Positions 12,870 to 28,678 of a DNA stretch of 64,000 nt are shown piece after piece. The notes under the pieces were generated by a model. The model did not search any database, was not told the DNA's origin, and worked only from the letters and a program-made list of their open reading frames with translations. The position numbers and the translations under genes are program-made. Origin of the DNA: Umezawaea endophytica. Its GTDB lineage: Bacteria; Actinomycetota; Actinomycetes; Mycobacteriales; Pseudonocardiaceae. Every line of letters begins with the position of its first letter. Within the stretch, counting starts at the first letter, position 1. The stretch is from positions 1 to 64,000 of the forward strand of contig NZ_JANYMP010000002.1 in assembly GCF_025061645.1 (NCBI RefSeq), given 5' to 3'.

Positions 12870-13129
12870 GTGTGAATCCCCCCAGCATCAGGCCCCAAGA
12901 AGCAGCCGGTGCGGAGCATATGTTCGGGCGGCCGCCATCACAAGAGCCGTGACAGTGATCACCGAGAGTAGTTGATCTTCGGGTGGGAGATGCCCCTCGC
13001 AAGGGCTCCCCAGGAGCCCGACTTGTCTGGTACAACCTGCTCTGTCGGCATCAATTGGGGGGCGACAACTACCGGGACGCGTGGACCTCCCACGTGTATT
13101 CGAGCGCGCCCGGACGAGGGGCAAGCTCA
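12870..13129. promoter_or_regulatory. Divergent promoter region between the Rhs toxin and tachylectin-like gene
   Basis: This 260-bp spacer holds both start regions of two secreted-protein genes read outward. It is less GC-rich than the flanking coding DNA. I see no confident -10/-35 pair or operator palindrome. Shared control of the two genes is inference from the divergent layout. Confidence 0.4.
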
Positions 13130-15868
13130 ATGAGAACAACGCCGCGCCAGTCGCTCAGACGCCTGGTGCAGATCGCGCTCGCCGCCATCCTGGGGGTCGT
13201 CGGCATCCCGTTGCTGACGAGCACCTCCAACGTGGCCAACGCGGTGCAGACCGCGCAGTGCTCGGCCACCGCGAACGTCTTCCTCGGCATGGCGGGCAGC
13301 CCGGACTTCCGGTTGCGCAAGCACCGCGAACCCGTGTCCGGCCAACCCACCTGGGAAGGCGACGACGGCATCGGGTGGGGCTGGGACGTCCGGTTCATGG
13401 CCGGTGCCAACGGTTACGTCTACTTCATCGAGAACGGTGAGCTCCGGAGGCACCGCTGGCTGGGCACGGGGTGGGAGAACGCGGGCGTCTCCGAGCTGAT
13501 CGGCTCGGGGTGGAGCGGGTGGGAACTCCCCGCGTACCACTTCCGCGTCACCGTCGACTCCAACAACAACATCTACTCCGTCGCGCAGGACGGCAACCTC
13601 ACCCTGCACCGGTTCAACGAGACCACCAAGGTCCTGACCAGCACGGTGGTCGACACCGGCTGGAACAAGTACGACCAGGTGCTGGCCGGGGGTGACGGCG
13701 TGCTCTACGCGCGGGACCCCAATGTCGCCGGTGGCACGCTCTACCGCTTCCAGCACGACTACCGCACGAACACGTTCTCCCAGAAGGACAAGAACGTCGG
13801 CAACGGCTGGAACGGCTACAAGCAGATCAGCTCTCCCGGCGCCGACGTCCTCTACGGCACCTTCGCGGGCGGCGAGACCTGGTGGTACCGCTACCTCCCG
13901 GAAACCGACACCTGGGCGAACAGCGGGTACGGCAACTGGAAAGAACGGATCACCACCTGGACCGGTGTCGACGAGATCGCCCCGGCGATCGACACGTGCA
14001 AGCTCGGCGCGCTCGCGTCCGAAGTGGAGTGCAAGCCGTCGGCGAACGTGTTCGGCGCGATGGCCGACACCTCCTTCCGGATCAAGCCGCACCCGGAGCC
14101 CGAGACCGGCATCACCAACTGGGACCCGGAGGTCACCGTCGGGGCGGGGTGGAACGGCACCCGGTTCATGTCGGCCCCCGGTGGTTACAAGTACATCGTC
14201 CGTCCCGACGGCTCGATGGTCCGGCACCGCTGGCTCGGTACGGGGTGGGCGAACGGCGGGACCAGCGAGCTGATCACCGCGACCGGTTGGGGCGGCTGGA
14301 CGGAGAACGCTTACCGCCACCGGCTCACCATCGACGCCAAGGGTGACTTCTACGGCGTGGCCGCGGACGGGAACCTGCGGCGCTGGGTGTTCAAGGAGGC
14401 CGACAAGTCCTTCACCGAGGAGGTCATCGAGGGCGGCTGGGGCAGGTTCGACCAGGTCTTCGCCGCGGGTGACGGCGTGCTCTACGCCCGCGACCCGTCG
14501 ATCGCCGGAGGAGCGCTCTACCGGTTCCACTACGACGCGAAGAACCGCCGCTGGATCGACTACGCCCGCGCCGCGAGCACGGGCTGGAACATGTTCAAGC
14601 AGATCGTCTCCCCCGGCGCGGACGTCATCTACGGTCTGTCCGGTTGGGACGTCTACTGGTACCGCTGGGACGCCACGACCAAGGACTTCGCCCTGAGTTC
14701 CGAGGGTTCCGGGCGGGAGTACATCGCCTGGTGGCAGAACGTCGACGAGATCGTGGCCGACATCGACGCCTGCAAGCTCAAGGCGCCGGAGACCATCACC
14801 CCGCCGTCGGTGCCCGCGCCGCTCGACGAGCGCACACAGATGATCTACAACCCGCAGAAGCAGCGGTTCGAGGTGTCCTGGGTCGAGGACTCCGGGGTGC
14901 TCAGGCGCGGGTGGCAGAGCACGTCCGGCACCGAGGTCGTCGAGTTCCAGGCGTTGTCGAGCACCGGCAACGCGGGCAGCGCGGCGCTCGCGCAGCAGCA
15001 GGACGGCAAGCTCGTGGCGATGGCCAGGGGCACCGACGCGCAGGTGAAGGCCCACGTCCAGCAGCAGGCGGGCAGCGACAGGTGGGTGGCGCCGGTCGGG
15101 GTGAACGGGGCGTTGAACACCAGCCCGGTGCTGGCGCGCAGCGGTGACCTGCTGACGGCGTTCGCCGTCGACGGCAACGGGAAGCTCTGGTACGCCGAGC
15201 AGCTCGGCGCCAACCTCGGGTTCAAGGCGTGGCGCCAGGCCGCGGATCCCGTGTCGTACACGATGACGTCCGGCTTCGCGGTGGTGCCGCACGGCAACTA
15301 CTTCGAGATCGCCTACCTGAACCCGGTGGGCACGGTCGCCGTCAAGAAGTTCAGCAACGGGGCGCTGTCGCCGCAGCGGGTCGCGTCGGGGATCACCGGT
15401 GTCGGCACGCCGAGCGCCGTGGCGTTCGCCGACGGCAAGGTGCAGTTCGTGGTCCGCGCGTCGGACGGCAAGCTGTACACCCAGAAGGAAGGCGCGTCCG
15501 GTTTCGCCGGGTGGACCGACATCAGCGGTGACGTCGGGACCTTCGCGGGCAGCCCCAGCACCATCGTCAACGCGCACGGCATCGTCGAGACGGTGATCCG
15601 CAGCGCGGGCGGCGGCGTCTACCGGGGCGGCCAGACCGCGCCGGGATCGACGACCTGGCGGCAGAACTGGGACTACAGCACGCACTCCTCGTCCGTCGAC
15701 CCGGTGCTGGCCGCCGGGGTGGGCAACGAGCAGCGCGTGTTCATCCGCTTCTCGGACGGCAACTACGCGATGTGGTTCGTCCCGCCGTACACGTCGACGG
15801 ACCAGGCGTCGGCGCGGTCGGCACGGGAGACCGCGTCCGCTCCGGCGGTCAAGCGGAAGATCGGCTGA
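13130..15868 (+). CDS. Secreted tachylectin-like carbohydrate-binding protein
   Basis: The protein has 912 residues. ATG 13130 is preferred to upstream in-frame starts because it gives a clean signal peptide (RRLVQIALAAILGVVGIPLL, cleavage near ANA at about 36-38) and a GAGGGG site lies 8 nt upstream. Two tandem ~249-residue tachylectin-2-like modules follow (about 44-292 and 301-550), each with LRRHRWLGTGW- or MVRHRWLGTGW-type blades, a GDGVLYARDP motif and a C-terminal D-x-C-K-L. After a Pro-rich linker, the last ~330 residues look like another beta-propeller with repeated S-D-G-K-L-Y or D-G-K-L blades. It should bind sugars outside the cell. It is divergent from the Rhs toxin, so it could serve surface recognition, but that link is speculative. 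Confidence 0.85.
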   Translation: MRTTPRQSLRRLVQIALAAILGVVGIPLLTSTSNVANAVQTAQCSATANVFLGMAGSPDFRLRKHREPVSGQPTWEGDDGIGWGWDVRFMAGANGYVYFIENGELRRHRWLGTGWENAGVSELIGSGWSGWELPAYHFRVTVDSNNNIYSVAQDGNLTLHRFNETTKVLTSTVVDTGWNKYDQVLAGGDGVLYARDPNVAGGTLYRFQHDYRTNTFSQKDKNVGNGWNGYKQISSPGADVLYGTFAGGETWWYRYLPETDTWANSGYGNWKERITTWTGVDEIAPAIDTCKLGALASEVECKPSANVFGAMADTSFRIKPHPEPETGITNWDPEVTVGAGWNGTRFMSAPGGYKYIVRPDGSMVRHRWLGTGWANGGTSELITATGWGGWTENAYRHRLTIDAKGDFYGVAADGNLRRWVFKEADKSFTEEVIEGGWGRFDQVFAAGDGVLYARDPSIAGGALYRFHYDAKNRRWIDYARAASTGWNMFKQIVSPGADVIYGLSGWDVYWYRWDATTKDFALSSEGSGREYIAWWQNVDEIVADIDACKLKAPETITPPSVPAPLDERTQMIYNPQKQRFEVSWVEDSGVLRRGWQSTSGTEVVEFQALSSTGNAGSAALAQQQDGKLVAMARGTDAQVKAHVQQQAGSDRWVAPVGVNGALNTSPVLARSGDLLTAFAVDGNGKLWYAEQLGANLGFKAWRQAADPVSYTMTSGFAVVPHGNYFEIAYLNPVGTVAVKKFSNGALSPQRVASGITGVGTPSAVAFADGKVQFVVRASDGKLYTQKEGASGFAGWTDISGDVGTFAGSPSTIVNAHGIVETVIRSAGGGVYRGGQTAPGSTTWRQNWDYSTHSSSVDPVLAAGVGNEQRVFIRFSDGNYAMWFVPPYTSTDQASARSARETASAPAVKRKIG
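13259..14779 (+). repeat. Internal duplication encoding two tachylectin-like modules
   Basis: Segments 13259-14005 and 14030-14779 encode collinear modules of 249 and 250 residues. They share landmarks in the same order: C-x-x-x-A-N-V-F, HRWLGTGW, GDGVLYARDP, SPGADV and VDEI. An in-frame gene-internal duplication is the simplest explanation. Confidence 0.8.
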
Positions 15869-16003: not shown

Positions 16004-16801
16004 TCACGCCTGAGCGTCGTCGAAGGACTGGCGGAGGGCCTCCAGCACCTGGTGTCGAAGACCCGCGCCGACGGCGATGGTGGCGGTGGAGTCGGCGTTG
16101 TGGGTGGTGTCGTCGAGGTCGACGACCAGGCCGCCCGCTTCGCGGACCAGGACGGTGCCCGCGAGGGTGTCCCACGGCATGTTGGCGAGGATCACGGTGG
16201 CGTCCAGCTTGCCCTCCGCCACCCAGGCCAGGTCGATCGCGGCGGTGCCGATCATGCGGATCCGCTGCGCCGTAGCGCCGAGGCGGGTGAGCAGGGCGAT
16301 GCGGACGGCGTTCTTGGTGGTGGCGTCGGTGCCCACGGCGAAGTCGCCGATGGAGATGACGGCGTTGGGCAGGTCTGCCACCGTCGAGGACCGGATGCGG
16401 GTGTCGTTGGCGTAGGCGCCGTGGCCCGAGGAGGCGTGGTAGTCGACGCCCAGGAACGGCAGGGTGATGGCACCCAGGACGGCGGTGCGGTCGGCGACCA
16501 GGCCGAGGGAGACCGCGCACAGGGGGATGCCGCGGGCGAAGTTGGTGGTGCCGTCCACCGGGTCCAGGGCCCACCAGAGGTCGGTGGGGCCGGTGTGGCC
16601 GTGCTCCTCGCCGAGCACGCCGACGTGCGGCGCCTCGGCCAGCAGGAACGTCCGGACGGCGTCCTCCACGGCGAGGTCGATGTCGGTGACCAGGTCGCGT
16701 TCCGACTTGGTGGTGACGGAACCCACGGCGCGGGTGGTGATGATCCCGCTGCCGATCGCCACGGCTTCGCGGGCGATCGGCAGCAGGTCGTGGTGGTTCA
16801 C
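16004..16801 (-). CDS. Inositol monophosphatase-family phosphatase
   Basis: The protein has 265 residues, starting at GTG 16801, which overlaps the ribA stop by 4 bp (GTGA), so translation is probably coupled. Family motifs are clear: TDIDLAVED near 40, GEEHG near 63, the metal-binding WALDPVDGTTNFARGIP at about 76-92, and the second WVAEGKLDATVILANMPWD at about 196-214, with the last aspartate completing the Mg site. The family removes phosphate from inositol, sugar or nucleotide-like phosphates. Placed directly behind GTP cyclohydrolase II, it may dephosphorylate a ribosyl- or ribityl-aminopyrimidine phosphate. That substrate is inference; a general sugar-phosphate phosphatase is the alternative. 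Confidence 0.9.
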   Translation of the reverse strand: MNHHDLLPIAREAVAIGSGIITTRAVGSVTTKSERDLVTDIDLAVEDAVRTFLLAEAPHVGVLGEEHGHTGPTDLWWALDPVDGTTNFARGIPLCAVSLGLVADRTAVLGAITLPFLGVDYHASSGHGAYANDTRIRSSTVADLPNAVISIGDFAVGTDATTKNAVRIALLTRLGATAQRIRMIGTAAIDLAWVAEGKLDATVILANMPWDTLAGTVLVREAGGLVVDLDDTTHNADSTATIAVGAGLRHQVLEALRQSFDDAQA

Positions 16802-17445
16802 CGGTCCACTGCGCGGGGCAGGTCCGTGGCGAACACGTCCACCTGCGGGAGGTCGTGGCCTAGGCGGTCGCGCTTGGCCGTGAGGTAGCCGATGTTGTGG
16901 TCGTTCGGCTGCACGAGCAGCGGCACGCGGGCCGCGACGGTGATGCCGTTGGACTCCAGCGCCTCGATCTTGTCCGGGTTGTTGGACATGAGCCGGACCG
17001 AGTTGACCCTGAGGTGCTTGAGGATCCTGACCGCCGGGCCGTAGTCGCGGACGTCGACGGGGAGTCCCAGCGACGTCGCGGAGTCCAGCGTGTCCAGACC
17101 CTGCTCGTCTTGCAGCACGTGGGTGCGGACCTTCTCGACCAGGCCGATCCCGCGACCCTCGTGGCCGCGCAGGTAGATCAGGATGCCGCTCCCCTCGGCG
17201 ACTATCCGGTTGAGGGCGGCGTCGAGCTGCTCCCCGCACTCGCAGCGCATGGCGCCGAAGATGTCGCCGGTCATGCACTCGGAGTGGACGCGGATGAGCA
17301 CGTTCTCCCTCATCCGCGTCTTGCCGTAGACCAGCGCCATGTGCTCGTGACCGTCCGCGCGGAACGCGACGGCGCGGAACGTGCCGCGGCGGGTCACCAG
17401 ATCCGACTCGGCGACGTCCTCGTGGCCGATGGCTTCCTCGTACAT
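16798..17445 (-). CDS. ribA: GTP cyclohydrolase II
   Basis: The protein has 215 residues. It converts GTP to 2,5-diamino-6-ribosylamino-4(3H)-pyrimidinone 5'-phosphate, formate and pyrophosphate, the entry step to riboflavin and related compounds. The zinc ligands Cys57, Cys68 and Cys70 lie in SECMTGDIFGAMRCEC; RGHEGRGIGL near 93-102 and NNPDKIEALESNGI near 154-167 are family signatures. GAGGGG precedes ATG 17445. It is a stand-alone RibA, not the RibBA fusion used in many riboflavin operons, and no ribB/ribE/ribH is nearby. It is therefore probably a pathway-dedicated paralog rather than the housekeeping enzyme. First gene of a two-gene operon with the IMPase. Confidence 0.95.
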   Translation of the reverse strand: MYEEAIGHEDVAESDLVTRRGTFRAVAFRADGHEHMALVYGKTRMRENVLIRVHSECMTGDIFGAMRCECGEQLDAALNRIVAEGSGILIYLRGHEGRGIGLVEKVRTHVLQDEQGLDTLDSATSLGLPVDVRDYGPAVRILKHLRVNSVRLMSNNPDKIEALESNGITVAARVPLLVQPNDHNIGYLTAKRDRLGHDLPQVDVFATDLPRAVDR

Positions 17446-17521
17446 CCGATCCCCTCATCGCCCGAGACCGGCCGATCGTCATTACGCTCGGCCGGAAGTT
17501 GCACCGTAACCCGCTCTCCCG

Positions 17522-17932
17522 ATGGAGGTCACCCTGTTCAGCATCACCGTCCGCGACCACGTGATGGTCGCGCACAGCTTCCGCGGCGAGGTCTTCGGTC
17601 CGGCACAACGTCTGCACGGGGCAACGTTCGTGGTGGACGCGCGGTTCAAACGAACCGACCTCGACGAGGACAACATCGTCGTCGACATCGGACTGGCCAC
17701 TGAGGAGCTCAAGACCGTCCTAGCCGAACTCAACTACCGCAACCTGGACGAGGTACCCGCTTTCGCCGGGGTCAACACCTCGACCGAGTTCCTGGCGAAG
17801 CACGTCGCCGACCAGCTCGCGGACCGCGTGCACGCCGGGGCGCTTGGCGAAGGGGCGCGGGGACTGGCCGCGATCGAGGTCTCGCTGCACGAGTCGCACG
17901 TGGCGTGGGCGAGCTACGAACGCGCTCTGTGA
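17522..17932 (+). CDS. 6-pyruvoyl-tetrahydropterin synthase / QueD-like protein with altered active site
   Basis: The protein has 136 residues and the T-fold of PTPS/Que[16 protein letters not shown] at the N terminus, RLHGATF at 30-36, and an ending [11 protein letters not shown]. His18 and His32 match two zinc ligands. The third His (usually G-H-N/S) is Ala34. The catalytic Cys normally ~4 residues before LHG is absent (PAQ). The usual D-H relay pair after the second helix reads N71-Y72. Glu89 and Glu124 match conserved acidic positions. It is probably not a standard QueD or PTPS and may act on a different pyrimidine/pterin. It is divergent from ribA (76-bp spacer) and its stop overlaps the glycosyltransferase start. 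Confidence 0.8.
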
Positions 17933-18945
17933 CCGTGCACGTCGTGCTGCCGAGCGGGGTCGACGACCCGTCGGTCCCGAGCGGCGGCAACTCCTACGAC
18001 CGGCGGATGTGCCGGGAACTGGTCGCGCTCGGCGTCGACGTGCGGGAGACCGCCGTGGGCGGCGCGTGGCCCGGCGAGGGGGACGAGGAGGCGTTGGCGC
18101 GAACGCTTGCGCAGGTCCCCGACGGCGGTGTCGTGCTGGTGGACGGCCTGGTGGCGTGCGGTGTGCCGGACGTCGTCGTGCCCCACGCCCGGCGGGTGCG
18201 GCTGGTGGTGCTGGTGCACCTGCCGCTGGCCGACGAGACGGGGCTCGCACCCGAGGTGGCCGCGGCGCTGGACGCCGCCGAACGGGAGGTCCTGCGGTCC
18301 GCCGCCGCGGTCGTGGGCACCAGCCCGTGGGCGTCGCGGCGGCTCGTCGAGCACCACGGGCTCGACCCAGAACGGGTGCACACCGTCACGCCGGGTGTCG
18401 ACCCGGCACCGCTCGCGCCCGGCACCGACGGGGTGTCGAGGCTGCTCTGCGTGGCGTCGGTCACGCCCCGCAAGGGGCACGACGTGCTGCTCGACGCGCT
18501 GGCGACCCTGGTCGACGCGCCGTGGACGCTGGACTGCGTCGGGCCGCTGGGGGCCGAGGCGCACGTGAGCGCCCTCCGGCGGTACGGCGACCGGGTGCGG
18601 TTCACCGGGCCGCTCAGCGGCGGGCCGCTGGACCGCGCGTACGCGGCGGCCGACCTGTTCGTGCTGGCCTCCCGCGCCGAGACGTACGGCATGGTCGTCA
18701 CGGAGGCGCTGGCCCGCGGCATCCCGGTCGTGGCCAGTTCCGTGCCGGACGCGCTGGGTGGCGGCGGCGTGCTCGTGCCGCCCGGTGACGTCGCCGCGCT
18801 CGCGGCGGAGCTCCGGCGCTGGTTCGGCGACGAGCGGGCCCGGCAGGACCTCCGGGAGGCCGCGCGGAGGCGGAGGGACCAGCTCACGGGGTGGGGCGAA
18901 GCCGCCGGGTCGATGGTCCGGGTGCTGGTTAGGGTGCGCGGATGA
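17929..18945 (+). CDS. Glycosyltransferase family 4
   Basis: The protein has 338 residues, starting at GTG 17929, which overlaps the preceding stop (GTGA). The GT-B fold is visible: an N-terminal domain beginning [19 protein letters not shown], then a C-terminal nucleotide-sugar domain with [19 protein letters not shown] at about 176-194 and the acceptor/donor motif [22 protein letters not shown] (E-x7-E type) at about 245-266. It should transfer a sugar from an activated donor to the pathway intermediate or carrier in the cytoplasm. Co-transcribed with the PTPS-like protein, a methyltransferase and a membrane protein. Donor and acceptor unknown. Confidence 0.9.
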
Positions 18946-19724
18946 GCTTCGCTCCCGAATGGCTGGCACTGCGGGAAAGGGCCGACGCCGAGGCCCGCGC
19001 GGTGGACCTGCTCGACCCCCTCCGCGAAACACTTCTGAACCGAACACCCCTAGTTGTACGTGATTTAGGGTGTGGAACGGGATCGATGGGGCGATGGCTC
19101 GCCGGACGGCTGGGAGGTCCGCAGCACTGGGTGCTGCACGACCTCGACCCGCGTCTGCTCGAACTGGCCGGTGCGAGCATGACGGGCGCCGGCGTGACCG
19201 TGGAGACGCGGGAGGGCGACCTCACCGCGCTGCGTGCCGACGACCTCGTCGGCACGTCCCTCGTGACGGCTTCGGCGCTGCTCGACCTGTTCACCTCCGA
19301 GGAGGTGGACCGGCTGGCACGGGCGTGCGCCGGGGTCCCGGTGCTGTTCACGCTGTCCGTGGCGGGTCGGGTCGAGCTGGACCCGGCCGAGTCGCTGGAC
19401 GTCGAGTTCCAGGACGCGTTCAACGCCCACCAGCGGCGGGTCGTCGACGGTCGGCGGCTGCTCGGCCCGGACGCCGTGACGGCCGCTGTGGCGGCTTTCG
19501 AGCGCTCCGGCGCCGAGGTGATCACCCGGCCCAGTCCGTGGCGCCTGGGGCCCGATCAGGCCGCGTTGACGGGGGAGTGGCTGCGGGGATGGGTGGCCGC
19601 CGCCGTCGAGCACGAACCCGGTCTCGCCGACGAGGCGCCCGCGTACCTGCGCAGGCGGCTCGACGCGGACCTGACCGCCGTCGTGCACCACACCGACCTG
19701 CTGGCCCTGCCGAGGGCCGCCTGA
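18942..19724 (+). CDS. Class I SAM-dependent methyltransferase
   Basis: The protein has 260 residues. ATG 18942 overlaps the glycosyltransferase stop (ATGA). The SAM motif I is VVRDLGCGTGSMGRWL at about 37-52, followed by an acidic motif II region (HDLDPRLLELA) and a DLV-type motif near 100. The substrate cannot be read from sequence; as a coupled member of the operon it probably methylates the sugar or the heterocycle of the same product. Confidence 0.85.
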   Translation: MSFAPEWLALRERADAEARAVDLLDPLRETLLNRTPLVVRDLGCGTGSMGRWLAGRLGGPQHWVLHDLDPRLLELAGASMTGAGVTVETREGDLTALRADDLVGTSLVTASALLDLFTSEEVDRLARACAGVPVLFTLSVAGRVELDPAESLDVEFQDAFNAHQRRVVDGRRLLGPDAVTAAVAAFERSGAEVITRPSPWRLGPDQAALTGEWLRGWVAAAVEHEPGLADEAPAYLRRRLDADLTAVVHHTDLLALPRAA

Positions 19725-20689
19725 TGCGCCGCGCCTGGCCGTGGCTGCGCCTGCTCGTGGCCGTCGGGATCCTGGTCGCGCTGGGCGCGCGCCTGGGCAC
19801 CGACGCGTTCCTGGACGGGCTGCGCGCCGTCGACGGCTGGGCGGTGCTCGCCGCGCTGGGCATCGGGTTGCTGACCACGGTGCTCAGCGCGTGGCGCTGG
19901 GTGGTCATCGCGCGCGCCCTCGGCCTGCCGCTCTCACTCGGCACGGCCGTCGCCGACTACTACCGCGGGCTGCTGCTCAACTCCGTGCTGCCCGCGGGCG
20001 TGCTCGGCGACGTCGACCGCGCGGTCAACCACGGCAAGCAGTCCGGCGACGTCGGTCGCGGGGTGCGCGCGGTCGTGTTCGAGCGGTTCGCGGGCCAGGT
20101 CGTGCTGATCTCCGTCGGCGTCGCGGTGCTGCTCACGCAGCCCGTGCTCGCCGTCGACCTCACGCCGAACGCGGGTGTGCTGGTGGCGGTCCTGGTCGGG
20201 CTCGCCGCCGTCGCCGCCCTCGCCGGGCGGTCGGCGAAGGTGCGCCGCGCGGTGGCCACGACCTGGGTGGACGCGCGGGTCGGCCTGTTCTCCCGGCACG
20301 CCATGCCCAGGGTCGCGGCGCTGTCCGCGGCGACGCTGGCCGGGCACGTCGCCCTCTTCCTGGTCGCCGCGAGAGCGGCCGGGTCCACGGCGTCCGCCGC
20401 CCAGCTAGTGCCGCTGATCGTGTTGGCGCTGCTGGTGATGGGGCTCCCGGTCAACATCGGCGGCTTCGGCCCCCGCGAGGCGTTCCTGGCCGTGGCGTTC
20501 GGCGCCGCGGGCCTCGGCGCCGCGCAGGGGCTCACGACCGGTGTCGTCTACGGCGTGCTGGCGATGGTCGCGGCGCTGCCAGGTGTGCTGGTGCTGTTCC
20601 GCGGTCGCGCTTCACGCCTCCAGCAGGTCGAGGTACTGCCCGAACGACTGGGCCAGGCTCGCGAGCAGGGCCTCGCCCTTGCGAGCTGA
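19724..20689 (+). CDS. Lysylphosphatidylglycerol synthase transmembrane-domain (flippase-like) protein
   Basis: The protein has 321 residues. ATG 19724 shares one base with the previous stop (TGATG). About eight hydrophobic segments are visible from residue 6 to 300. YYRGLLLNSVLPAGVLGDVDRA at about 81-102 and GFGPREAFLAVAF near 247-259 are hallmarks of the LPG_synthase_TM / YbhN family. The soluble aminoacyl-transferase domain of MprF is absent, so it is the flippase-like half only. It could translocate a lipid-linked product made by the preceding enzymes. Its last 78 bp overlap the convergent creatininase gene. Confidence 0.9.
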   Translation: MRRAWPWLRLLVAVGILVALGARLGTDAFLDGLRAVDGWAVLAALGIGLLTTVLSAWRWVVIARALGLPLSLGTAVADYYRGLLLNSVLPAGVLGDVDRAVNHGKQSGDVGRGVRAVVFERFAGQVVLISVGVAVLLTQPVLAVDLTPNAGVLVAVLVGLAAVAALAGRSAKVRRAVATTWVDARVGLFSRHAMPRVAALSAATLAGHVALFLVAARAAGSTASAAQLVPLIVLALLVMGLPVNIGGFGPREAFLAVAFGAAGLGAAQGLTTGVVYGVLAMVAALPGVLVLFRGRASRLQQVEVLPERLGQAREQGLALAS

Positions 20690-21307
20690 TCCCAGTGACG
20701 GGCGGCCGACCACACCCGACTCCGTGTACGGCGCGAGACCGAGCGTCAGCATGTGCCGCCGGTCGTCCGCGAGGTGGTCGCCCGTCTCGTAGCCGGGCCG
20801 CACCAGGTCCGGGTGCGCGTGCAGCAGGATCGACGTCTCCAGTTCGCCCGCGTGCATGTCGCTGTCGGCGGACGTCTCGACCCCCGCCGACTCCCGAGCC
20901 GCCGTCCAGTCCCCGATTCCGGGGAACAGGGCCATGCCCTCGGCCTCCTGGACGATGTTGGCCAGCACGTAGTTGCCGCCGTGGCCGTTGACCAGCACCA
21001 GGTTCCGCACGCCGGACCGGCGCAGCGAGTCCGCGATGTCCGTCACCACCGCGAACAGCGTGCGGGCGGAGATGCTGACCGTGCCCGGCCACGCCGCGTG
21101 CTCCTGCGAGCACGTGATCGTCAGCGGTGGCAGTAGCTGCACGCGGTGCGCGTCGGCCACGGCCCGCGCGATCGTGCAGGCGATGACGGTGTCCGTGGCC
21201 AGCGGCAGGTGCGCGCCGTGCTGCTCGTGGCTGCCGACGGGCAGGACGGCCACGGTCGCGGCGCGGTCCCGGACCTCGACGGTGGTGTCACTCGGAAGCA
21301 GGTGCAT
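20612..21307 (-). CDS. Creatininase-family metal-dependent amidohydrolase
   Basis: The protein has 231 residues from ATG 21307; ATG 21325 is an alternative giving six more residues. The family signature VLPVGSHEQHGAHLPLATD places metal ligands Glu28, His30 and Asp39; NGHGGN and MHAGELETS complete the site. The family includes creatininase, MftE of mycofactocin processing, and ArfB, which deformylates a GTP-derived pyrimidine in archaeal flavin/F420 synthesis. With ribA, a PTPS-like gene and a RibD-type reductase nearby, an ArfB-like ring or formamide hydrolysis is a reasonable guess. It is translationally overlapped by the upstream dehydrogenase gene and collides 3' with the flippase-like gene. 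Confidence 0.9.
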   Translation of the reverse strand: MHLLPSDTTVEVRDRAATVAVLPVGSHEQHGAHLPLATDTVIACTIARAVADAHRVQLLPPLTITCSQEHAAWPGTVSISARTLFAVVTDIADSLRRSGVRNLVLVNGHGGNYVLANIVQEAEGMALFPGIGDWTAARESAGVETSADSDMHAGELETSILLHAHPDLVRPGYETGDHLADDRRHMLTLGLAPYTESGVVGRPSLGSARKGEALLASLAQSFGQYLDLLEA

Positions 21308-22277
21308 GCGCGGCACGGTAGTCAATCCGGTGGCACAGCGCCGGAACGCCGCCGTCCGCCAGCTTCGGCAGCACGTCCGGCAGGTCGTCGAACGGGCTCT
21401 CGCCGGTGATGAGCGCGTCGAACGCCGGATCGGCCAGCAGGTCCAGCGCCAGCGCGAGCCGCTGCGCGTACGTCCGGTCGGGACGGCCGACCACGCCGAC
21501 CTGGCTGCTGCGCACGGTGAGCCTGCGGGAGTGGAAGAACTCGCCGAGCGGCAGGCTGATCCTGCGGTCCCCGTACCAGCTCAGCTCGACGACCCGGCCC
21601 TCCGGCGCCAGCAGTTCCAGTGATCGCGCCAAACCCCGTTCGGTGGCGCTGGCGTGCACGACGAGGTCCAGGTCGCCGTCCGCGTCCTCGGGCGACGAGA
21701 ACCCGACGCCCAGCGCGGCGGCGACGGTCGCGCGCGTGGGATCGGTGTCCACCAGTTGGACTCGGACGCCGGGGAACTTCGCGAGCACCGCGGCGACGCT
21801 GCACCCGACCATCCCGCCGCCGACGACCGCGATCCGGTCGCCGATCAGGGGAGCCGCGTCCCACAGCGCGTTCACCGCGGTCTCCACCGTCCCGGCCAGC
21901 ACGGCCCGCGCCGCGGGCACGGCGTCCGGCACCGGGGTGACCGCGCTGACCGGGACCACGTAGTGCGTCTGGTGTGGATAGAGGCAGAACACCGTGCGGC
22001 CCAACAGGTCCGCCGGGCCGGTTTCGACCACGCCGACGTTGAGGTACCCGTACTTCACCGGCCACGGGAACTCGCCGTCCTGGAAGGGGGCCCGCATCAC
22101 CCCGTGCTGGTTCTCGGGCACACCGCCCCGCAGGACGAGCGTCTCGGTGCCGCGGCTCACACCCGAGTAGAGCGTGCGGACGAGCACCTCGTCGGGTCCG
22201 GGAGGAGCGATCCGGACAGGTCGGATCTCACTTTTTCCGCTTGAGGTGAACCAAAGTGCCCTCGCCGCGCGTGTCAT
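21288..22277 (-). CDS. Medium-chain (MDR) zinc-type alcohol dehydrogenase-like oxidoreductase
   Basis: The protein has 329 residues. ATG 22277 is chosen because GGAGG lies 7 nt upstream; an upstream in-frame start lacks one. The GroES-like N-terminal domain begins with PPGPDEVLVRTLYSGVSRGTET, then the Rossmann motif AVVGGGMVGCSVAAV at about 140-155 with D at the end of the second strand (LVDTD), suggesting NAD(H). The catalytic-zinc Cys-His-Glu triad and the four-Cys structural zinc loop are not visible, so it is a zinc-independent or reductase-like subclass. First gene of an operon with the creatininase (20-bp overlap). Only 43 bp separate it from the divergent phosphatidyltransferase gene. 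Confidence 0.88.
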   Translation of the reverse strand: MTRAARALWFTSSGKSEIRPVRIAPPGPDEVLVRTLYSGVSRGTETLVLRGGVPENQHGVMRAPFQDGEFPWPVKYGYLNVGVVETGPADLLGRTVFCLYPHQTHYVVPVSAVTPVPDAVPAARAVLAGTVETAVNALWDAAPLIGDRIAVVGGGMVGCSVAAVLAKFPGVRVQLVDTDPTRATVAAALGVGFSSPEDADGDLDLVVHASATERGLARSLELLAPEGRVVELSWYGDRRISLPLGEFFHSRRLTVRSSQVGVVGRPDRTYAQRLALALDLLADPAFDALITGESPFDDLPDVLPKLADGGVPALCHRIDYRAAHAPASE

Positions 22278-22320
22278 CCAAGAACCTCCGACAAAAACGG
22301 GGCCCACTCAAAGGGGCACG

Positions 22321-23082
22321 ATGACCACACTTCAGCACAGCAAGACGGCGTCCGCCGTGCCCGAGCACGCGGCGTGGGCCGGTGCGCAGATCATCCTGCT
22401 CGGCATCGTCGAGCGCACGGTCGGGCTCGGCCCGATGGGCTGGCTCACCGGTATCGCCTACGCGGTCGCGACCTGGTCCCTCCTGGGTTACGCGTTGCAG
22501 CGCACCGGAACCGCTCTCGGGCCCGCCGACCGGGTCACGCTCGGCAGGGGTGTGCTCGTCGGCTCGGTGACGGCGATCGTGGTCGACCGCGTAGGAGAGG
22601 GGGTGCCGACGGCGATGATGGTGGCGTTCACCGCGGTCGCGCTGTCCCTCGACTGCGTGGACGGCCAGGTCGCCCGCCGCACGGGCACGGCGTCCACGCT
22701 CGGTGCGCGGTTCGACATGGAGGTCGACGCCTTCCTCATCCTGGTCCTGAGCGTGCACGTGGCGTTCTCGTTCGGCCCGTGGGTGCTGGCGATCGGCGCG
22801 ATGCGCTACGTCTTCGTGGCGGCCTCCTGGGCGTTCGCCTGGCTGCGCGCCGACCTCCCCGGCAGTTACGCCCGCAAGTCCGTGGCCGCGATCCAGGGCG
22901 TCCTGCTGGTGGTCGCCGCGTCCGGGGTCGTGCCGTTCTCCGAGTACCTCGTCGGCTTCGCGCTGGCGACGCTGGTGTGGTCGTTCGGCCGGGACACCGC
23001 GTGGCTGTTCCGCCACCGCGTCACCGCTGCCGCCGCCACCGTCGCCGAGCCGGTCGTCGCGCGGAGCTACGTCCACGTCTGA
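22321..23082 (+). CDS. CDP-alcohol phosphatidyltransferase-family membrane enzyme
   Basis: The protein has 253 residues, with AAAGGGG upstream of ATG 22321. The complete catalytic motif D-x2-D-G-x2-A-R-x8-G-x3-D-x3-D is present (Asp111, Asp114, Gly115, Ala118, Arg119, Gly128, Asp132, Asp136), flanked by about six membrane segments. The family joins an alcohol to a CDP-activated lipid or polyol with loss of CMP. The N-terminal ~30 residues are an unusual extension before the first helix. In this cluster it could attach the polar head to a lipid carrier; the alcohol is unknown. Monocistronic, divergent from the MDR gene. Confidence 0.92.
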   Translation: MTTLQHSKTASAVPEHAAWAGAQIILLGIVERTVGLGPMGWLTGIAYAVATWSLLGYALQRTGTALGPADRVTLGRGVLVGSVTAIVVDRVGEGVPTAMMVAFTAVALSLDCVDGQVARRTGTASTLGARFDMEVDAFLILVLSVHVAFSFGPWVLAIGAMRYVFVAASWAFAWLRADLPGSYARKSVAAIQGVLLVVAASGVVPFSEYLVGFALATLVWSFGRDTAWLFRHRVTAAAATVAEPVVARSYVHV

Positions 23083-23100
23083 CCAGGTCAGCGGCTCGCG

Positions 23101-23772
23101 TCAGCGCTTGGGGAAGTAGCGCAGCACGGCGACGTCACCGAGCTTCAGCACCTCTTCCAGGTGGAAGCGGTGCGCGGGCCCGCCGGGGAACTCGGCGGGA
23201 CCGAGGAAGCGCGGGGCGTCCGCCTGACCGATGAGCATCGGGGCGACGGCCACGCGGATCTCGTCGGCCAGCCCGGAGGCGAGGAACGCGGTGTGGATCG
23301 CCTCGCCGCCCTCGACCATCAGGCGCTCGACCCCGCGGTCGCCGAGGTCGTCCAGCAGGGCGCCGAAGTCGACCTCGGACCCGAGCGCCACGACGTCCGC
23401 CAGGTCGCCGAGCGCGGCGGAGGCCCGTGCCGCGCCGGAATCGGTGCTGTAGACGAGCTTGTCGCCGCCGTGGTGCCAGAACTTCCAGTCCGGGTCCAGG
23501 TCGCCGGACCGGGAAACGGTGACCTTCACCGGGAACTCGGACCGTCCGCTCGCGACTCGGGCCGCCCTCCGCTCCGGGCTGTTCACCAGCAGCCGCGGGT
23601 TGTCCGCGCGCAGCGTTCCCGCGCCAACGAGGATCGCCCCCGATTCGGCGCGGATCCGGTCCACGTGGTCGAAGTCGTCCGCATTGGACAGTGGGAAGCG
23701 GTAACCGCTCCGGTCGTCGATGTGGCCGTCGACGCTGACGGCGACGCTGAGCAGCACGTGCGGTCGGGTCAC
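23101..23772 (-). CDS. RibD C-terminal-type pyrimidine reductase (dihydrofolate reductase fold)
   Basis: The protein has 223 residues, starting at GTG 23772 (V-T-R-P-H-V). It has the RibD_C pattern: LSVAVSVDGHIDD near 7-19, GAILVGAGTLRADNPRLLV near 43-61, and the NADPH loop VERLMVEGGEAIHTAFL near 151-167. The family reduces the ribosyl chain of the RibA product to ribityl using NADPH. There is no deaminase domain, as in stand-alone RED enzymes and other pterin/pyrimidine reductases. It lies between the phosphatidyltransferase and the sulfatase-like gene, convergent with the former (18 bp) and divergent from the latter. Confidence 0.9.
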   Translation of the reverse strand: MTRPHVLLSVAVSVDGHIDDRSGYRFPLSNADDFDHVDRIRAESGAILVGAGTLRADNPRLLVNSPERRAARVASGRSEFPVKVTVSRSGDLDPDWKFWHHGGDKLVYSTDSGAARASAALGDLADVVALGSEVDFGALLDDLGDRGVERLMVEGGEAIHTAFLASGLADEIRVAVAPMLIGQADAPRFLGPAEFPGGPAHRFHLEEVLKLGDVAVLRYFPKR

Positions 23773-23875
23773 GCTCCCCACCGTAGTCGGCCCGCCGAAC
23801 TCCACCACCGGCTGAACCTTCCGCCGGTGGGCCGCGTTACCCCTTGCAGTGCCCCGCGCAGGAGAGGTTCGGAGA

Positions 23876-25576
23876 ATGTCGCTCATCACCCGGTTCCAGC
23901 GGTCCCCCGTTGAGCCCGCGACCCCGGACGAGCCGCGCGCCGGGAGCCGGTGGCGGCGCGTCGCGGCACCCGCGACCACCGTGCTGGCGGGCCTGTTCGT
24001 GCTGGTGGCGCTGGTCGCCCCCGCCGACTTCGAGCGGTTCACGCCCGGCGCGTTCCTGCGCGTCCCGGTCGAGGGCCTGCTCGGCGTGGTGCTGGTGCTG
24101 GTCCTGCCGCCGAGGCCCCGCCGGATCGCGGCGGTGGTCGGCGGTGCCGGGCTGGGCCTGCTGCTCGTGGTGAAGGTCATGGACATCGGCTTCGACGCGG
24201 TGCTCTACCGGCCGTTCGACCTGGTCCTGGACTGGCCGCTGCTCGGGCCCGCGGTCGACTACGTCGACGTCACGGTCGGCCGGGTCGCGTCGATCGGCGC
24301 CGTGGTCGCCGTGGTGGCGCTGGTGATCGGGCTGGTCGTCCTGACGACCCGGTCCGTCCTGCGGCTGACCCGCGTCGTGGTCGGCCACCGCACCGCCTCG
24401 ATCCGCGCGGTCGCGCTGCTCGCGGTCGCGTCGATCACCCTCGCCGTGCCCGGTGTGCCGATCTCCTCGGGTGGCGCGGCGGAGTTCGTCTACGACCACG
24501 CGCGAGCGGTGAAGGCGGGGCTGAACGACCGCGAGGAGTTCGCCAAGGAGGCCGCGGTCGACGCGTTCCGCGACACCCCCGGCGCGGAGCTGCTGACCGG
24601 CTTGCGCGGCAAGGACGTCGTGCTGACGTTCGTGGAGAGCTACGGCCGGGACGCGCTGGAGAACCCGGAGATCGCGCCCAAGGTGACCGCGGCGCTCGAC
24701 GCGGGCAGCGCCGAGCTGCGCGCGGCCGGGTACGCGTCCCGCAGCGGCTTCCTGACCTCGCCGACGGCGGGCGGCGGGAGCTGGCTGGCGCAGGCGACGC
24801 TGCTGTCCGGGCTGTGGATCGACAACCAGCAGCGGTACCGCACGCTCGTCGCGAGCGACCGCCTCAGCCTGCCCAGCGCGTTCGGCCGCGCCGACTGGCG
24901 GTCCGTGGGGATCATGCCGGGCATCACGCAGGCCTGGCCGGAAGGCGACTACTTCGGCTACGACCAGATCCGCGCGGGCGGCGACCTCGGCTACCGCGGA
25001 CCGCGCTTCGGCTACGCCACCATGCCCGACCAGTACACGCTGTCCGCGTTCCAGCAGCGCGAGCGCTCCACGCCCGGCCACGCGCCGGTGATGGCCGCGA
25101 TCCCGCTGCTGTCGAGCCACGCGCCGTGGTCGCCCATCCCGGAGGCGGTCGACTGGGACGAGGTCGGCGACGGTTCCACCTACAACTCGATGGTGTCGGG
25201 GACCGACCCGCCCGAAGCCATCTTCGGCCGTGACCCGAGCAGCGTTCGGGCCGACTACGCGAAGTCCGTCGAGTACTCGGTGAAGACCCTGATCTCCTAC
25301 GTGGAGACCTACGGCGACGACGATCTCGTGCTCGTCTTCCTCGGCGACCACCAGCCGGCCCAGGTGGTCACCGGAGCGGACGCGGGCAAGGACGTGCCGA
25401 TCACGATCGTCGCCAAGGACCCCGCCGTGCTGGACCGGGTCGCGGGCTGGGGCTGGGACGACGGGCTCAAGCCCGGTGAGAAGGCGCCCGTCTGGCGGAT
25501 GGACGAGTTCCGCGACAGGTTCCTCACCGCGTTCGGCTCGACCACGCTCAAGACGTCGGCCTCGCCGGAGCACTGA
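23876..25576 (+). CDS. Membrane-anchored sulfatase / phosphoglycerol-transferase-like (LTA-synthase fold) protein
   Basis: The protein has 566 residues; GGAGA ends just before ATG 23876 and AGGAGAGG lies ~10 nt upstream. Four to five hydrophobic segments fill residues ~30-200 and place a large C-terminal domain outside. The domain begins VVLTFVESYGRDALEN at about 244-259, has a Gly/Ser/Thr nucleophile region TSPTAGGGSWLAQ near 294-306, and the family metal motif FLGDHQPAQV near 486-495. This is the alkaline-phosphatase/sulfatase superfamily that includes lipoteichoic-acid synthases. It would transfer or cleave a phospho- or sulfo-ester head group on the outer face. As the terminal gene of the cluster it may move a lipid-linked head group; substrate unknown. 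Confidence 0.85.
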   Translation: MSLITRFQRSPVEPATPDEPRAGSRWRRVAAPATTVLAGLFVLVALVAPADFERFTPGAFLRVPVEGLLGVVLVLVLPPRPRRIAAVVGGAGLGLLLVVKVMDIGFDAVLYRPFDLVLDWPLLGPAVDYVDVTVGRVASIGAVVAVVALVIGLVVLTTRSVLRLTRVVVGHRTASIRAVALLAVASITLAVPGVPISSGGAAEFVYDHARAVKAGLNDREEFAKEAAVDAFRDTPGAELLTGLRGKDVVLTFVESYGRDALENPEIAPKVTAALDAGSAELRAAGYASRSGFLTSPTAGGGSWLAQATLLSGLWIDNQQRYRTLVASDRLSLPSAFGRADWRSVGIMPGITQAWPEGDYFGYDQIRAGGDLGYRGPRFGYATMPDQYTLSAFQQRERSTPGHAPVMAAIPLLSSHAPWSPIPEAVDWDEVGDGSTYNSMVSGTDPPEAIFGRDPSSVRADYAKSVEYSVKTLISYVETYGDDDLVLVFLGDHQPAQVVTGADAGKDVPITIVAKDPAVLDRVAGWGWDDGLKPGEKAPVWRMDEFRDRFLTAFGSTTLKTSASPEH

Positions 25577-25752
25577 CCCGTCCGCGGACGAGCGGTAGCG
25601 CCCGCTGATTCGCTCACCGGTCAAACAGCGGTGGGCGGATCGGTGGGCTGTTAGCGTCGCCGACTAGCTGATCGGGGCGGCTTCGACGTGCCCGGAAACG
25701 CCCGCGGTCGGTGCTGGGGACCATGGTCGGCCGACGCGTGTCTGGTGGATGT

Positions 25753-28653
25753 GTGAGCTGGTCGTTCGGTGTTCTGGGCCCGTTGGACGTGCGGTGCGAC
25801 GGGTGCGCGATCGAGGTGGCCGCCCCGCAGCAGCGCAGGCTGCTGACCGGCCTGCTGCTCAGCGCGGGGCAGGTCGTGTCGGTGGAGAGCCTGCTCGCCC
25901 TGCTGTGGGAGGACGAGCCGCCCGTGAGCGGGCGCAAGGTCGTGCAGGTCTACGCCTCGCAGTTGCGCAGGCTGCTGGCCGGGAGACCCGGCGTGGAGCT
26001 GACCGGGTCGCGGCAGGGCTACCGGCTGGACATCCCGCCGGGCGCGCTGGACCTGGACGCGTTCCGCGACCTCGTGCGCCGCGCGACGGCCACCGCCGAC
26101 CCGGTGGCCGCGGGCGACCTGCTGCGCCGGGCGCTGGGCCTCTGGCGCGGCACGCCCGTGCCCGACCTGCGCCACACCGGTCGCGGCGGGCGGCTGGGCG
26201 AGGCGCTGGAGGAGGAGCGGCTGGGCGCCGTGGAGTACCGCGTCGACGCGGACCTGCGGGCCGCGCGGCACCGCGACCTCGTGCCCGAGTTGACCGCGCT
26301 GGTCGCCGAGCAGCCGCTGCGGGAACGGTTGCGCGGCCAGTTGATGCTCGCCCTGCACCGCTCCGGCCGCCAGGCCGAGGCGCTCAACGCCTTCGCGGAG
26401 GGGAAACGGCTGCTGGCCGACGAACTCGGTCTCGATCCGGGGCAGGAGCTGCGGGCGTTGCACGCCGCCGTGCTGGCGGACGACGTCCCGGTCGAGCCGG
26501 TGACCCCGGTCGTGGTGCGGGAGAGGCACTTCGCGCCGCGGGAACTGCCGGCCAACCCGGCCGTGTTCGTCAACCGCGACCGCGAACGGGAGGTGCTGCT
26601 CGACCTGCTGGCCCGCGCCGAGCACGAGCCGGTCGTGGGCGCGGTCCACGGGCCCGGCGGCCGGGGCAAGTCCGCGCTGGTGCTGCGGGTCGCGCACCTG
26701 GCCGCCGAGCTGTTCCCGGACGGCCAGCTCTACGTCGACCTCCAGGGCTCCACCCCCGGCCGCGAGCCGGTCGAGGCGGCCCAGGTGCTCCAGCACTTCC
26801 TGCGCGCGCTCGGCGCCCCGCCGCTGGCGATCCCCGCCGACCCGGCCGAGGCCGCCGCGCTGTACCGGTCGATGCTCGCGGACCGCCGCGTGCTCGTGGT
26901 GCTGGACAACGCGATCGACGCGACCCAGGTGATCCCGTTGCTGCCCGCGGGGGCGGGCAGCGCGATCCTGGTCACCAGCAGGCGGGTGCTGGCTACCCTG
27001 GACGGCCTGCACCTCGCGCTGGACCCGCTGCCGGAGCACGAGGCCGTCGCGCTGCTCGGCGCGGTGACCGGGCTGGTCGCGGACGACGCGGGCAGGCTCG
27101 CGGCGGCACGGGTGGCGCGGAGCTGCGGCTACCTGCCGCTGGCGCTGCGGATCGCCGCAGCCCGGCTGCGCAGCAGGCCGGACTGGACGCTGGCGTCGCT
27201 GGCCGACCGGCTGGACGACGAGCGGCACCGGCTGGACGAACTGCGGTTCGACGACCTCGCGGTGCGGTCCAGCGTGCGGCTCAGCTTCGAGGAGCTGGTC
27301 CGCGACGGGTCCGAGCGCGGCCGGGTCGCGGCGCACGCGTTCCGGCTGCTGGGGTTGCTGGCCCTGCCGACGGTGCGGCTGCCCGTGGCGGCGGCCCTGC
27401 TGGGGCTCGACCGGATCGAGGCCGAGCGGGCGATCGACCCGCTCGTGGACGCGGGGCTCGTGGACGTGGAGGCGCCGGGGGAGTACCGGATGCACGACCT
27501 GCTCCGGCTGTTCGCGATCGAGCAGGCCGAACGCGACGAGACCGCGGAGGAGCGGGCCGCGGCCGTGGTGCGCGCGCTGACCTACTACCGCGACACGGTC
27601 CACGAGGTGCAGTCGACGTTGCGGCCGTTGGACGTCTCGCACCCGGCCGGGGCGCCGGAGCGGCACGGCGGGATCGAGGGCTGCCTGGCCTGGATGACCG
27701 CCGAGACGCCGAACCTGCTCGTCGCCGCCACGCAGGCCGCGACCCGGCCGGACGGCGGCGTGCTCGCGCTGGAGATCGCGCTGGTGCTCCAGGAACACCT
27801 GTGGAAGCAGGACCTGCACGCCGAGATCGCGTTGACCGGGCGCATCGGCGTGACGGTCGCGGAGCACGGGCTGGAGCCCGGTGCCGAACGGCTCGCGCTG
27901 GTCGTGCGGGCGTTCGCGGACCAGGTCGCGGGCCGCTACGGGCTCGCCCGCGAGCGGTACGAGCGGGCGCTGGCGCTGTCCGAGGACGACCCGCTGGGGC
28001 GGGCGAGGGTGCTGGTCAGCCTGGGTGGGCTGCTGACGAACTACACGGGCCTGCCCGAGGAGGCCGTCCCGCACCTGGACCGGGCGCTGGCGATCCTGGA
28101 CGAGCACGGGGCGCCGGGAGCCGGTGTCGGCACGCTGCACGTGCTGGCCCGCGCGCACCACCTGGCCGGTCGAGGGGCCACGGCGCTGTCGCTGGCCGGG
28201 CACGCGCTGGACCTCGCGCGGGAGCACCACGCCCCGCACAGCATCGCCATCTGCGTGGCCGACCTCGGCCTGCTCTACGGGCACCTCGGCGACCACGACC
28301 GGGCGTTGTCGCTGCTCGACGAGTGCATGGCGCGGGCGCGGGAGGTCGGCAACCGCGAGGACGAGTGGACGACGCTGCTCAGCCGCTCGGAGATCCGGTT
28401 GCGGCAGGGGAACCCGGCCGCGGCGCTGGCCGACGCGAGCGCGTCGCTGGCGATGACCAGCAGGCTCGGCAGCGCGTACGGCCGGGCGGCGGGGCACCGG
28501 CAGACGGCCCGCGCGCTGCTGGCCGAGGGCGACGTCGTCACCGCGGCCTGGCACCAGCGGACCGCGCGGTCGCTGTTCGGAGGGGTGGACGTGCGGCTGC
28601 CCGCGTTCTTCGAGTCGTTCCTCGGCTACCGCGACCCGGTCCTCGTCGACTGA
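25753..28653 (+). CDS. AfsR/SARP-type transcriptional regulator (BTAD, NB-ARC, TPR)
   Basis: The protein has 966 residues; GTG 25753 is preferred because residue 2 onward (SWSFGVLGPLDV) is the normal family start. Order: winged-helix DNA-binding domain (~1-90), bacterial transcriptional activator domain (~95-245, ending LADELGLDPGQELRALH), NB-ARC ATPase with P-loop GPGGRGKSAL near 300 and VLVVLDNA near 380, a winged helix (YRMHDLLRLFAIEQAE near 580), then TPR repeats (~640-960). Such proteins activate secondary-metabolism or developmental genes after nucleotide and ligand sensing. It lies 176 bp behind the sulfatase-like gene on the same strand, so it could regulate the preceding cluster, but nothing in the sequence proves it. 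Confidence 0.9.
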   Translation: MSWSFGVLGPLDVRCDGCAIEVAAPQQRRLLTGLLLSAGQVVSVESLLALLWEDEPPVSGRKVVQVYASQLRRLLAGRPGVELTGSRQGYRLDIPPGALDLDAFRDLVRRATATADPVAAGDLLRRALGLWRGTPVPDLRHTGRGGRLGEALEEERLGAVEYRVDADLRAARHRDLVPELTALVAEQPLRERLRGQLMLALHRSGRQAEALNAFAEGKRLLADELGLDPGQELRALHAAVLADDVPVEPVTPVVVRERHFAPRELPANPAVFVNRDREREVLLDLLARAEHEPVVGAVHGPGGRGKSALVLRVAHLAAELFPDGQLYVDLQGSTPGREPVEAAQVLQHFLRALGAPPLAIPADPAEAAALYRSMLADRRVLVVLDNAIDATQVIPLLPAGAGSAILVTSRRVLATLDGLHLALDPLPEHEAVALLGAVTGLVADDAGRLAAARVARSCGYLPLALRIAAARLRSRPDWTLASLADRLDDERHRLDELRFDDLAVRSSVRLSFEELVRDGSERGRVAAHAFRLLGLLALPTVRLPVAAALLGLDRIEAERAIDPLVDAGLVDVEAPGEYRMHDLLRLFAIEQAERDETAEERAAAVVRALTYYRDTVHEVQSTLRPLDVSHPAGAPERHGGIEGCLAWMTAETPNLLVAATQAATRPDGGVLALEIALVLQEHLWKQDLHAEIALTGRIGVTVAEHGLEPGAERLALVVRAFADQVAGRYGLARERYERALALSEDDPLGRARVLVSLGGLLTNYTGLPEEAVPHLDRALAILDEHGAPGAGVGTLHVLARAHHLAGRGATALSLAGHALDLAREHHAPHSIAICVADLGLLYGHLGDHDRALSLLDECMARAREVGNREDEWTTLLSRSEIRLRQGNPAAALADASASLAMTSRLGSAYGRAAGHRQTARALLAEGDVVTAAWHQRTARSLFGGVDVRLPAFFESFLGYRDPVLVD

Positions 28654-28678
28654 CACCTCACCCTCCCTTCGCGACGGT

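Follow-up and report, generated by a model that had tools for sequence, protein, structure and literature searches.

What might explain why Umezawaea endophytica, an actinomycete of the Pseudonocardiaceae, keeps a gene for a GTP cyclohydrolase II homologue, RibA, among genes for glycosylation and putative lipid-carrier enzymes? The eleven genes concerned lie at 16004-25576 of a stretch of 64,000 nucleotides, here called the window (contig NZ_JANYMP010000002.1, positions 1 to 64,000). A preliminary description of this DNA had read them as a candidate undescribed pathway that joins GTP-derived pyrimidine or pterin chemistry to glycosylation and lipid-carrier genes. On balance, the gene content and homologies favor a cluster dedicated to a biosynthesis that uses GTP separately from the riboflavin route. 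It would form 2-amino-5-formylamino-6-ribosylamino-4(3H)-pyrimidinone 5'-phosphate (FAPy), convert it to 2,5-diamino-6-ribosylamino-pyrimidinone phosphate (DARPP) and then to a ribityl compound, giving a head group that may be linked to a lipid.

A ribA gene beside a complete riboflavin operon

The genome has three RibA genes, one in the window and one on each of contigs 18 and 39. Contig 18 carries a complete ribD-ribE-ribBA-ribH operon, whose RibD has its deaminase domain, and with it the sole RibH match of the genome. The lumazine synthase is therefore not in the window cluster, as had been noted beforehand, and the pathway idea had hung on two further points that now prove right: a separate, complete rib operon exists, and the window ribA is not the only GTP cyclohydrolase II gene of the genome. 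Because the complete operon sits on contig 18, nothing that we found makes the window RibA necessary for riboflavin. It is very improbable that RibA and the RibD_C reductase of the window back up riboflavin or F420 synthesis, with the glycan genes as mere neighbors. That operon speaks against it, as do the recurrence across phyla of the linkage with the T-fold and other genes, and the absence from the window RibA of a tyrosine that is present in all 26 examined RibAs outside the cluster (20 from tree rows, and the six remaining ones from the same 20 genomes). On the other side, both proteins are riboflavin-family enzymes, and in two genomes (G221 and G273) the sole RibA adjoins the T-fold gene.

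The contig 39 RibA (L267, 9756-10478) has kept the tyrosine, and the tree places it with the Tyr-type cluster RibAs of other actinobacteria. A second cluster around this gene was considered and rejected, since none of the other ten cluster proteins has a match within about 10 kb of it.

Gene content and conservation of the cluster

The genes, identified from the list of open reading frames and a Pfam profile search, are as follows.

16004-16801, minus strand: IMPase-family phosphatase (PF00459, 174.8 bits; GTG start, 4-bp overlap with the end of ribA)
16798-17445, minus strand: RibA, GTP cyclohydrolase II homologue (PF00925, 199.2 bits; His109 at the position of E. coli Tyr105, by alignment to PDB 2bz0)
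17522-17932, plus strand: PTPS/QueD-like T-fold protein (PF01242, 83.2 bits; PDB 3d7j, E 2.2e-67; HGA instead of HxH)
17905-18945, plus strand: GT4-family glycosyltransferase (PF13692, 92.9 bits; listed start GTG; 28-bp overlap with the T-fold gene)
18942-19724, plus strand: class I S-adenosylmethionine-dependent methyltransferase (PF13649, 41.0 bits; 4-bp overlap with the GT4 gene)
19724-20689, plus strand: YbhN/LPG_synthase_TM flippase-like membrane protein (PF03706, 106.2 bits)
20612-21325, minus strand: creatininase-family amidohydrolase, candidate FAPy deformylase (PF02633, 213.8 bits; listed start TTG)
21288-22277, minus strand: medium-chain dehydrogenase/reductase (MDR), weakly BchC-like (PF00107, 25.7 bits against a cut-off of 31.8; bchC, 47.5 bits, also below cut-off)
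22321-23082, plus strand: CDP-alcohol phosphatidyltransferase (PF01066, 46.1 bits against a cut-off of 22)
23101-23781 (start approximate), minus strand: RibD_C reductase (PF01872, 133.7 bits; no match to a deaminase domain)
23876-25576, plus strand: membrane protein with an LtaS/GacH-like alkaline-phosphatase-superfamily domain (alignment A1, AlphaFold model and Foldseek)

They form six alternating strand blocks: IMPase-ribA (minus), T-fold-GT4-methyltransferase-YbhN (plus), creatininase-MDR dehydrogenase (minus), CDP-alcohol transferase (plus), RibD_C reductase (minus) and the large membrane enzyme (plus). The preliminary inventory stands for ten of the genes, which have reading frames and Pfam matches; its count of five strand blocks has to be raised to six. 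Neighboring genes in the first two blocks overlap by 1-28 bases, which suggests co-translation within these blocks.

The eleven genes are real and are members of one conserved unit. To define the comparison, the T-fold protein was searched in 394 genomes of the class (58 matches) and in 60 relatives (26 matches), the window's genome and one other being counted in both searches. After leaving out the window itself, a weak match (G051) and a match at a contig edge (G074), the first set comprised 80 neighborhoods of at most 20 kb from 79 genomes, eight of them shorter than 15 kb. All eleven window proteins were compared with these, and a gene was counted as present at 60 bits or more. At least six of the eleven genes occur in 72 of the 80 neighborhoods and at least eight in 53. 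By comparison, in 20 control stretches of equal length, cut at arbitrary positions from 20 of the same genomes, none of the proteins scored 60 bits or more (the nearest scores were 59.3 and 50.8 bits, both for GT4), and none of the 20 attained six genes. The proposal that the set would prove co-conserved among actinomycetes is thus borne out. Apart from the T-fold gene (80/80 by selection), the most constant members are GT4 (80/80), the MDR dehydrogenase (78/80), YbhN (71/80), the CDP-alcohol transferase (68/80) and the methyltransferase (62/80), followed by RibA (59/80), creatininase (45/80), RibD_C (32/80), the LtaS-fold gene (32/80) and IMPase (7/80).

In a further set, made up of 80 named loci (the best 80 of at least 561 T-fold relatives, with many Pseudonocardiaceae and Streptomyces among them), 79 have at least six genes. 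Some genomes are in both sets, and joint counts, such as those over 182 loci below, therefore hold repeats. IMPase is an optional member in this set too (19/80). The order and strand of ribA, creatininase, the CDP-alcohol transferase and the LtaS-fold gene vary between lineages with their content kept, so that content outlasts arrangement. In a sample of the phylum, 89 of 396 genomes have a T-fold match at E 0.001; outside the class only one (G473) exceeds 40% identity, and most of the remaining matches are probably ordinary QueD-like proteins. When the other open reading frames of 97 neighborhoods were clustered, high-GC shadow frames dominated the 30 groups listed. Nine loci from relatives in the same family (L112-L115, L117, L119, L122-L124) have a gene for a DoxX-like membrane protein close to the cluster, and the L122 protein matches PF13564.

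The RibA active site and the creatininase

Tyr105 of E. coli is an active-site residue of GTP cyclohydrolase II. The window RibA keeps three cysteines at the zinc-site positions and has His109 in place of this tyrosine. To ask how general the replacement is, RibA matches below 60 bits were left out and identical RibA domains were counted once, which left 139 sequences from 143 loci; for creatininase, presence meant a score above 100 bits. The tyrosine is replaced by His, Met, Leu, Gln or Ser in 115 of these 139 distinct RibAs near a T-fold gene. A creatininase gene is found in the fetched stretch for 112 of the 115 non-Tyr RibAs, as against none of the 24 Tyr RibAs. This linkage of Tyr-less RibA with creatininase is new here. 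Each of the three exceptions has its own circumstances: the genome of L090 has the creatininase about 13 kb away, a little beyond the first stretch; the L137 locus is truncated where its contig ends; and the RibA of L191 (Pseudonocardia bannensis, around 14217-14759) has kept the zinc cysteines, with changes at several otherwise conserved residues that its relative L189 keeps, and is possibly decayed. The RibA tree included 32 extra rows, of which 10 proved to be cluster genes fetched again and two (L252 and L253) to be the genes of L107 and L104, leaving the 20 rows outside the cluster mentioned above. Searched as whole genomes, 11 Tyr-type genomes gave one close creatininase homologue (above 200 bits), distant ones in five (56-91 bits, 35-43% identity), fragments only in one, and none in four.

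The replacement has a reported precedent. In a study of Streptomyces coelicolor SCO6655, methionine at the switch residue, Met120, is said to stop the enzyme at FAPy, and tyrosine to restore the normal product. The creatininase of the window keeps E34, H36, D45, H115 and E161, which we take to be metal ligands, in at least 97% of 116 loci. The earlier comparison with ArfB is upheld in that the enzyme is likely to be an ArfB-like deformylase.

Several findings weigh against a dedicated cluster that runs through FAPy. RibD_C, RibA and the LtaS-fold gene occur at 60 bits or more in only 32, 59 and 32 of the 80 neighborhoods of the first set, and therefore the pathway may be variable or may borrow enzymes. 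A plasmid of Rhodobacteraceae SC52 (Rhodobacterales) shows four genes only, MDR-PTPS-MT-RibD (MT, methyltransferase), GT4 being absent from the cluster. In L104 and L107, two of the 24 Tyr cases, the cluster RibA is the only one of its genome and probably serves riboflavin. The creatininase falls below curated cut-offs, both for ArfB (40.4 against 180 bits) and for MftE, its best NCBIfam model (133.6 against 172 bits). Among the Tyr-type genomes, G444 carries a close homologue of the creatininase (59%, 251 bits), placed on a contig of 6.3 kb that holds no other cluster gene. Lastly, the RibA tree, built quickly from 90 rows and weak at many forks, shows no more than about three changes of the Tyr trait, and because of this an independent-pairs test of the link between tyrosine and creatininase cannot reach significance.

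The last three of these points, namely the cut-offs, the presence in G444 of a close homologue of the creatininase together with a Tyr-type RibA, and the few changes on the tree, would also fit a later role for the creatininase, perhaps on an amide of the completed head group; its linkage with Tyr-less RibA would then reflect shared descent of cluster types instead of a linked reaction. We consider this decidedly unlikely, as the division between non-Tyr and Tyr loci holds across differing gene orders.

Probable routes to the diaminopyrimidine

How, then, might the cluster use GTP? Comparison of the gene sets makes it fairly likely that three front ends converge on DARPP and are followed by a RibD-type reductase. 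In one, a Tyr-type RibA alone would yield DARPP. In the second, that of the window, the Tyr-less RibA would convert GTP to FAPy, and the creatininase-family enzyme would remove the formyl group to give DARPP. In the third, GTP cyclohydrolase III (GCH III) would act with a presumed ArfB of archaeal riboflavin synthesis. All three Haloarcula plasmid clusters have GCH III in the slot beside the dehydrogenase (PF05165, 272-277 bits), and the product of GCH III is FAPy according to the excerpted text of PMC7288161. The RibD_C reductase of the window would then turn the ribosyl group of DARPP into ribityl with the 2-amino group retained; its best NCBIfam model is that of the archaeal diaminopyrimidine reductase (TIGR01508), for which DARPP is the substrate, at 135.3 bits, below the cut-off of 186.45. 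The IMPase, where present, may take off the phosphate. The first three of these steps (RibA, creatininase and RibD_C) are assigned by homology.

The link between the RibA residue and the creatininase makes this a testable pathway, in which FAPy is probably no dead end but the substrate of a partner deformylase. An annotation rule comes with it: a Tyr-less RibA beside the T-fold/GT4/creatininase set should not be labeled riboflavin synthesis.

The T-fold protein and a proposed head group

The T-fold protein is closely related to SCO6650, whose structure has been solved (PDB 3d7j). In the window protein the zinc motif is HGA rather than HxH, the second histidine being alanine, and the same holds in 175 of 182 loci; all three zinc histidines are kept in four haloarchaeal T-fold loci. 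The constancy of HGA suggests a changed function rather than decay. If the protein were a queuosine or tetrahydropterin enzyme, as its match to the PTPS family might imply, the cluster would be a pterin cofactor pathway. This is the least probable of the alternatives: the QueD model scores 36.5 bits against a cut-off of 89.25, the alanine replaces a zinc histidine in nearly all loci, and the plasmid neighborhoods, whose gene tables are incomplete, name no GTP cyclohydrolase I, QueE or QueC. In the favored GTP-drawing cluster, we conjecture that the T-fold protein, dehydrogenase, methyltransferase and GT4 would complete a pyrimidine- or pteridine-type head group.

Three linear Streptomyces plasmids (L222, L233 and L234) carry a same-family T-fold gene but not the cluster. 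Cupin, BTAD-regulator, sigma-70 and metallo-β-lactamase-fold genes lie nearby on all three, and this may be a second use of the T-fold family.

Putative lipid-carrier, flippase-like and LtaS-fold genes

The CDP-alcohol transferase keeps D112, D115, G116, A119, R120, G129, D133 and D137 in at least 97% of 153 loci; we take these to be the aspartate motif of the family. The large membrane enzyme, the DHQP-motif gene that the preliminary description had called sulfatase/lipoteichoic acid (LTA)-type, gave no match in Pfam (E 0.001) or in NCBIfam (E 0.01). Its AlphaFold model, built on 16 rows, has a mean pLDDT (predicted local distance difference test) of 74. In a Foldseek search of the PDB, LtaP and LtaS were the best matches (E 1.2e-9 to 6.4e-8), with modest target-normalized TM-scores of about 0.5; the GacH phosphoglycerol transferase was among the best, and phosphoethanolamine transferases and sulfatases ranked lower. 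Like LtaS, LtaP and GacH, the window enzyme has N-terminal helices and an alkaline-phosphatase-superfamily domain; unlike them it has no sequence-family match, and the fold alignments are at 12-16% identity. In the 16-row alignment A1, E254, S302, D491 and H492 are invariant, and by eye we tentatively assigned them as the metal-site Glu and Asp-His and the Ser nucleophile. The earlier LTA-type label is therefore plausible, short of proof.

In the mechanism that we propose, the CDP-alcohol transferase would join the head group through a phosphodiester to a lipid or other alcohol, and the YbhN-like and LtaS-fold proteins would move and modify the product outside. Since the CDP-alcohol transferase is accompanied by a flippase-like protein and by an enzyme of putative LtaS fold, the later enzymes would most simply be read as making an exported product linked to a lipid, although everything after the reductase, lipid linkage included, is conjecture. 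A diffusible GTP-derived natural product is a rather unlikely alternative. It would be a glycosylated, methylated pyrimidine or pteridine without a lipid, the CDP-alcohol transferase joining two small molecules and the membrane proteins exporting the result. In its favor are reduced sets, such as that of SC52, in which the CDP-alcohol transferase or LtaS-fold genes are missing, and YbhN-like proteins are no proof of a lipid substrate, but the frequency of the CDP-alcohol transferase and YbhN genes in the first set (68/80 and 71/80) and the retained motif residues of the former count against it.

The preliminary description had gone further, to a surface or exported pterin/pyrimidine glycolipid. 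What survives of its GTP-derived pyrimidine reading is one conserved set with a RibA-type start from GTP, apart from riboflavin. The glycolipid itself does not survive as the established product: CDP-alcohol transferase, flippase-like and LtaS-fold genes co-occur in many loci, whereas SC52 has its four genes only. More speculatively, and with a rather low chance of being right, the product may be a membrane-anchored, GTP-derived ribityl-pyrimidine or -pteridine glycophospholipid, a new class in actinobacteria, proteobacteria and haloarchaea that would hold a redox, light-absorbing or signaling group at the outer face. The pyrimidine would be kept formylated until it met the dedicated creatininase, insulating the pathway from riboflavin. 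Should lipid linkage prove right, the product would count as a new type of membrane component.

Spread beyond actinobacteria

For proteobacteria and archaea the analysis covered plasmid records, which makes the spread given for them a minimum; annotation was absent from three rhizobial records and from one of Arthrobacter. Cluster-like sets occur on alphaproteobacterial plasmids of Methylosinus trichosporium OB3b, Peteryoungia, Agrobacterium tumefaciens (pAt), Neorhizobium, Rhizobium SL42, Palleronia and Rhodobacteraceae SC52, on a gammaproteobacterial plasmid of Thiodictyon, and on haloarchaeal plasmids of Haloarcula, Natronorubrum and Halomicrococcus. In every one of these sets the dehydrogenase adjoins the T-fold gene (Natronorubrum has one small gene in between), and the pair is followed by GT4 or the methyltransferase.

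A cytochrome b gene lies beside the cluster in seven proteobacterial plasmid loci (L214, L215, L220 and L229-L232), that of L220 having been tested as b561; these neighbors hint at redox chemistry.

Relation to known systems

To call the pathway undescribed was too strong: the SCO6650 structure, reportedly published in 2008, and work of 2006 on S. coelicolor paralogues (PMID 17002314) mean that the locus is partly known from that organism. The work, by Spoonamore et al., reportedly dealt with the GTP cyclohydrolase II paralogues of S. coelicolor and found that SCO6655 makes the formylated product. The window T-fold protein is close to SCO6650, and Streptomyces clusters have a similar gene set with methionine at the tyrosine position. 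The window differs in that its RibA has histidine rather than methionine and in that it holds RibD_C; most Streptomyces loci examined have no nearby RibD_C match, or one of about 30% identity only.

In the early riboflavin and F420 steps of archaea, catalyzed by ArfA, ArfB and ArfC, reduction precedes deamination. The window cluster would share the logic of FAPy and a deformylase with these steps, and the Haloarcula clusters carry GCH III. Unlike in archaea, the window would rely on a RibA homologue to form FAPy, and instead of lumazine and riboflavin synthases it has T-fold, glycosyl, lipid and flippase-like genes. The excerpted text of PMC9478397 states this division between FAPy formation and a separate deformylase, and reports that BrbF of Sinorhizobium meliloti, annotated as a creatininase, deformylates FAPy. 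BrbF resembles the window enzyme by annotation and proposed reaction but serves riboflavin synthesis, and the excerpts mention no T-fold or glycosyltransferase neighbors.

Among the titles and abstract openings listed in literature searches, with subscription journals mostly outside their reach, none dealt with the gene set, its product, the tyrosine/creatininase linkage or a pterin lipid. One metabolic-model paper names SCO6655 once. The 8-azaguanine pathway, which also starts from GTP cyclohydrolase chemistry, was considered as a described counterpart and set aside, the excerpted text of PMC7109123 being without the terms PTPS, pyruvoyl, creatininase and RibD. A gene set so widely shared, present in many of the Streptomyces and Pseudonocardiaceae records examined, represents a sizeable gap in actinomycete metabolism.

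Surroundings of the cluster in the window

Directly upstream of the cluster, a gene at 12983-15868 (plus strand) encodes a protein of 961 residues with two Tachylectin-type stretches (PF14517). On the other side, 25651-28760 is a long region open in several frames, of which the tested plus and minus frames are without a Pfam match. Positions 1-4000 have a G+C content of 0.59-0.62, compared with 0.67-0.77 elsewhere in the window.

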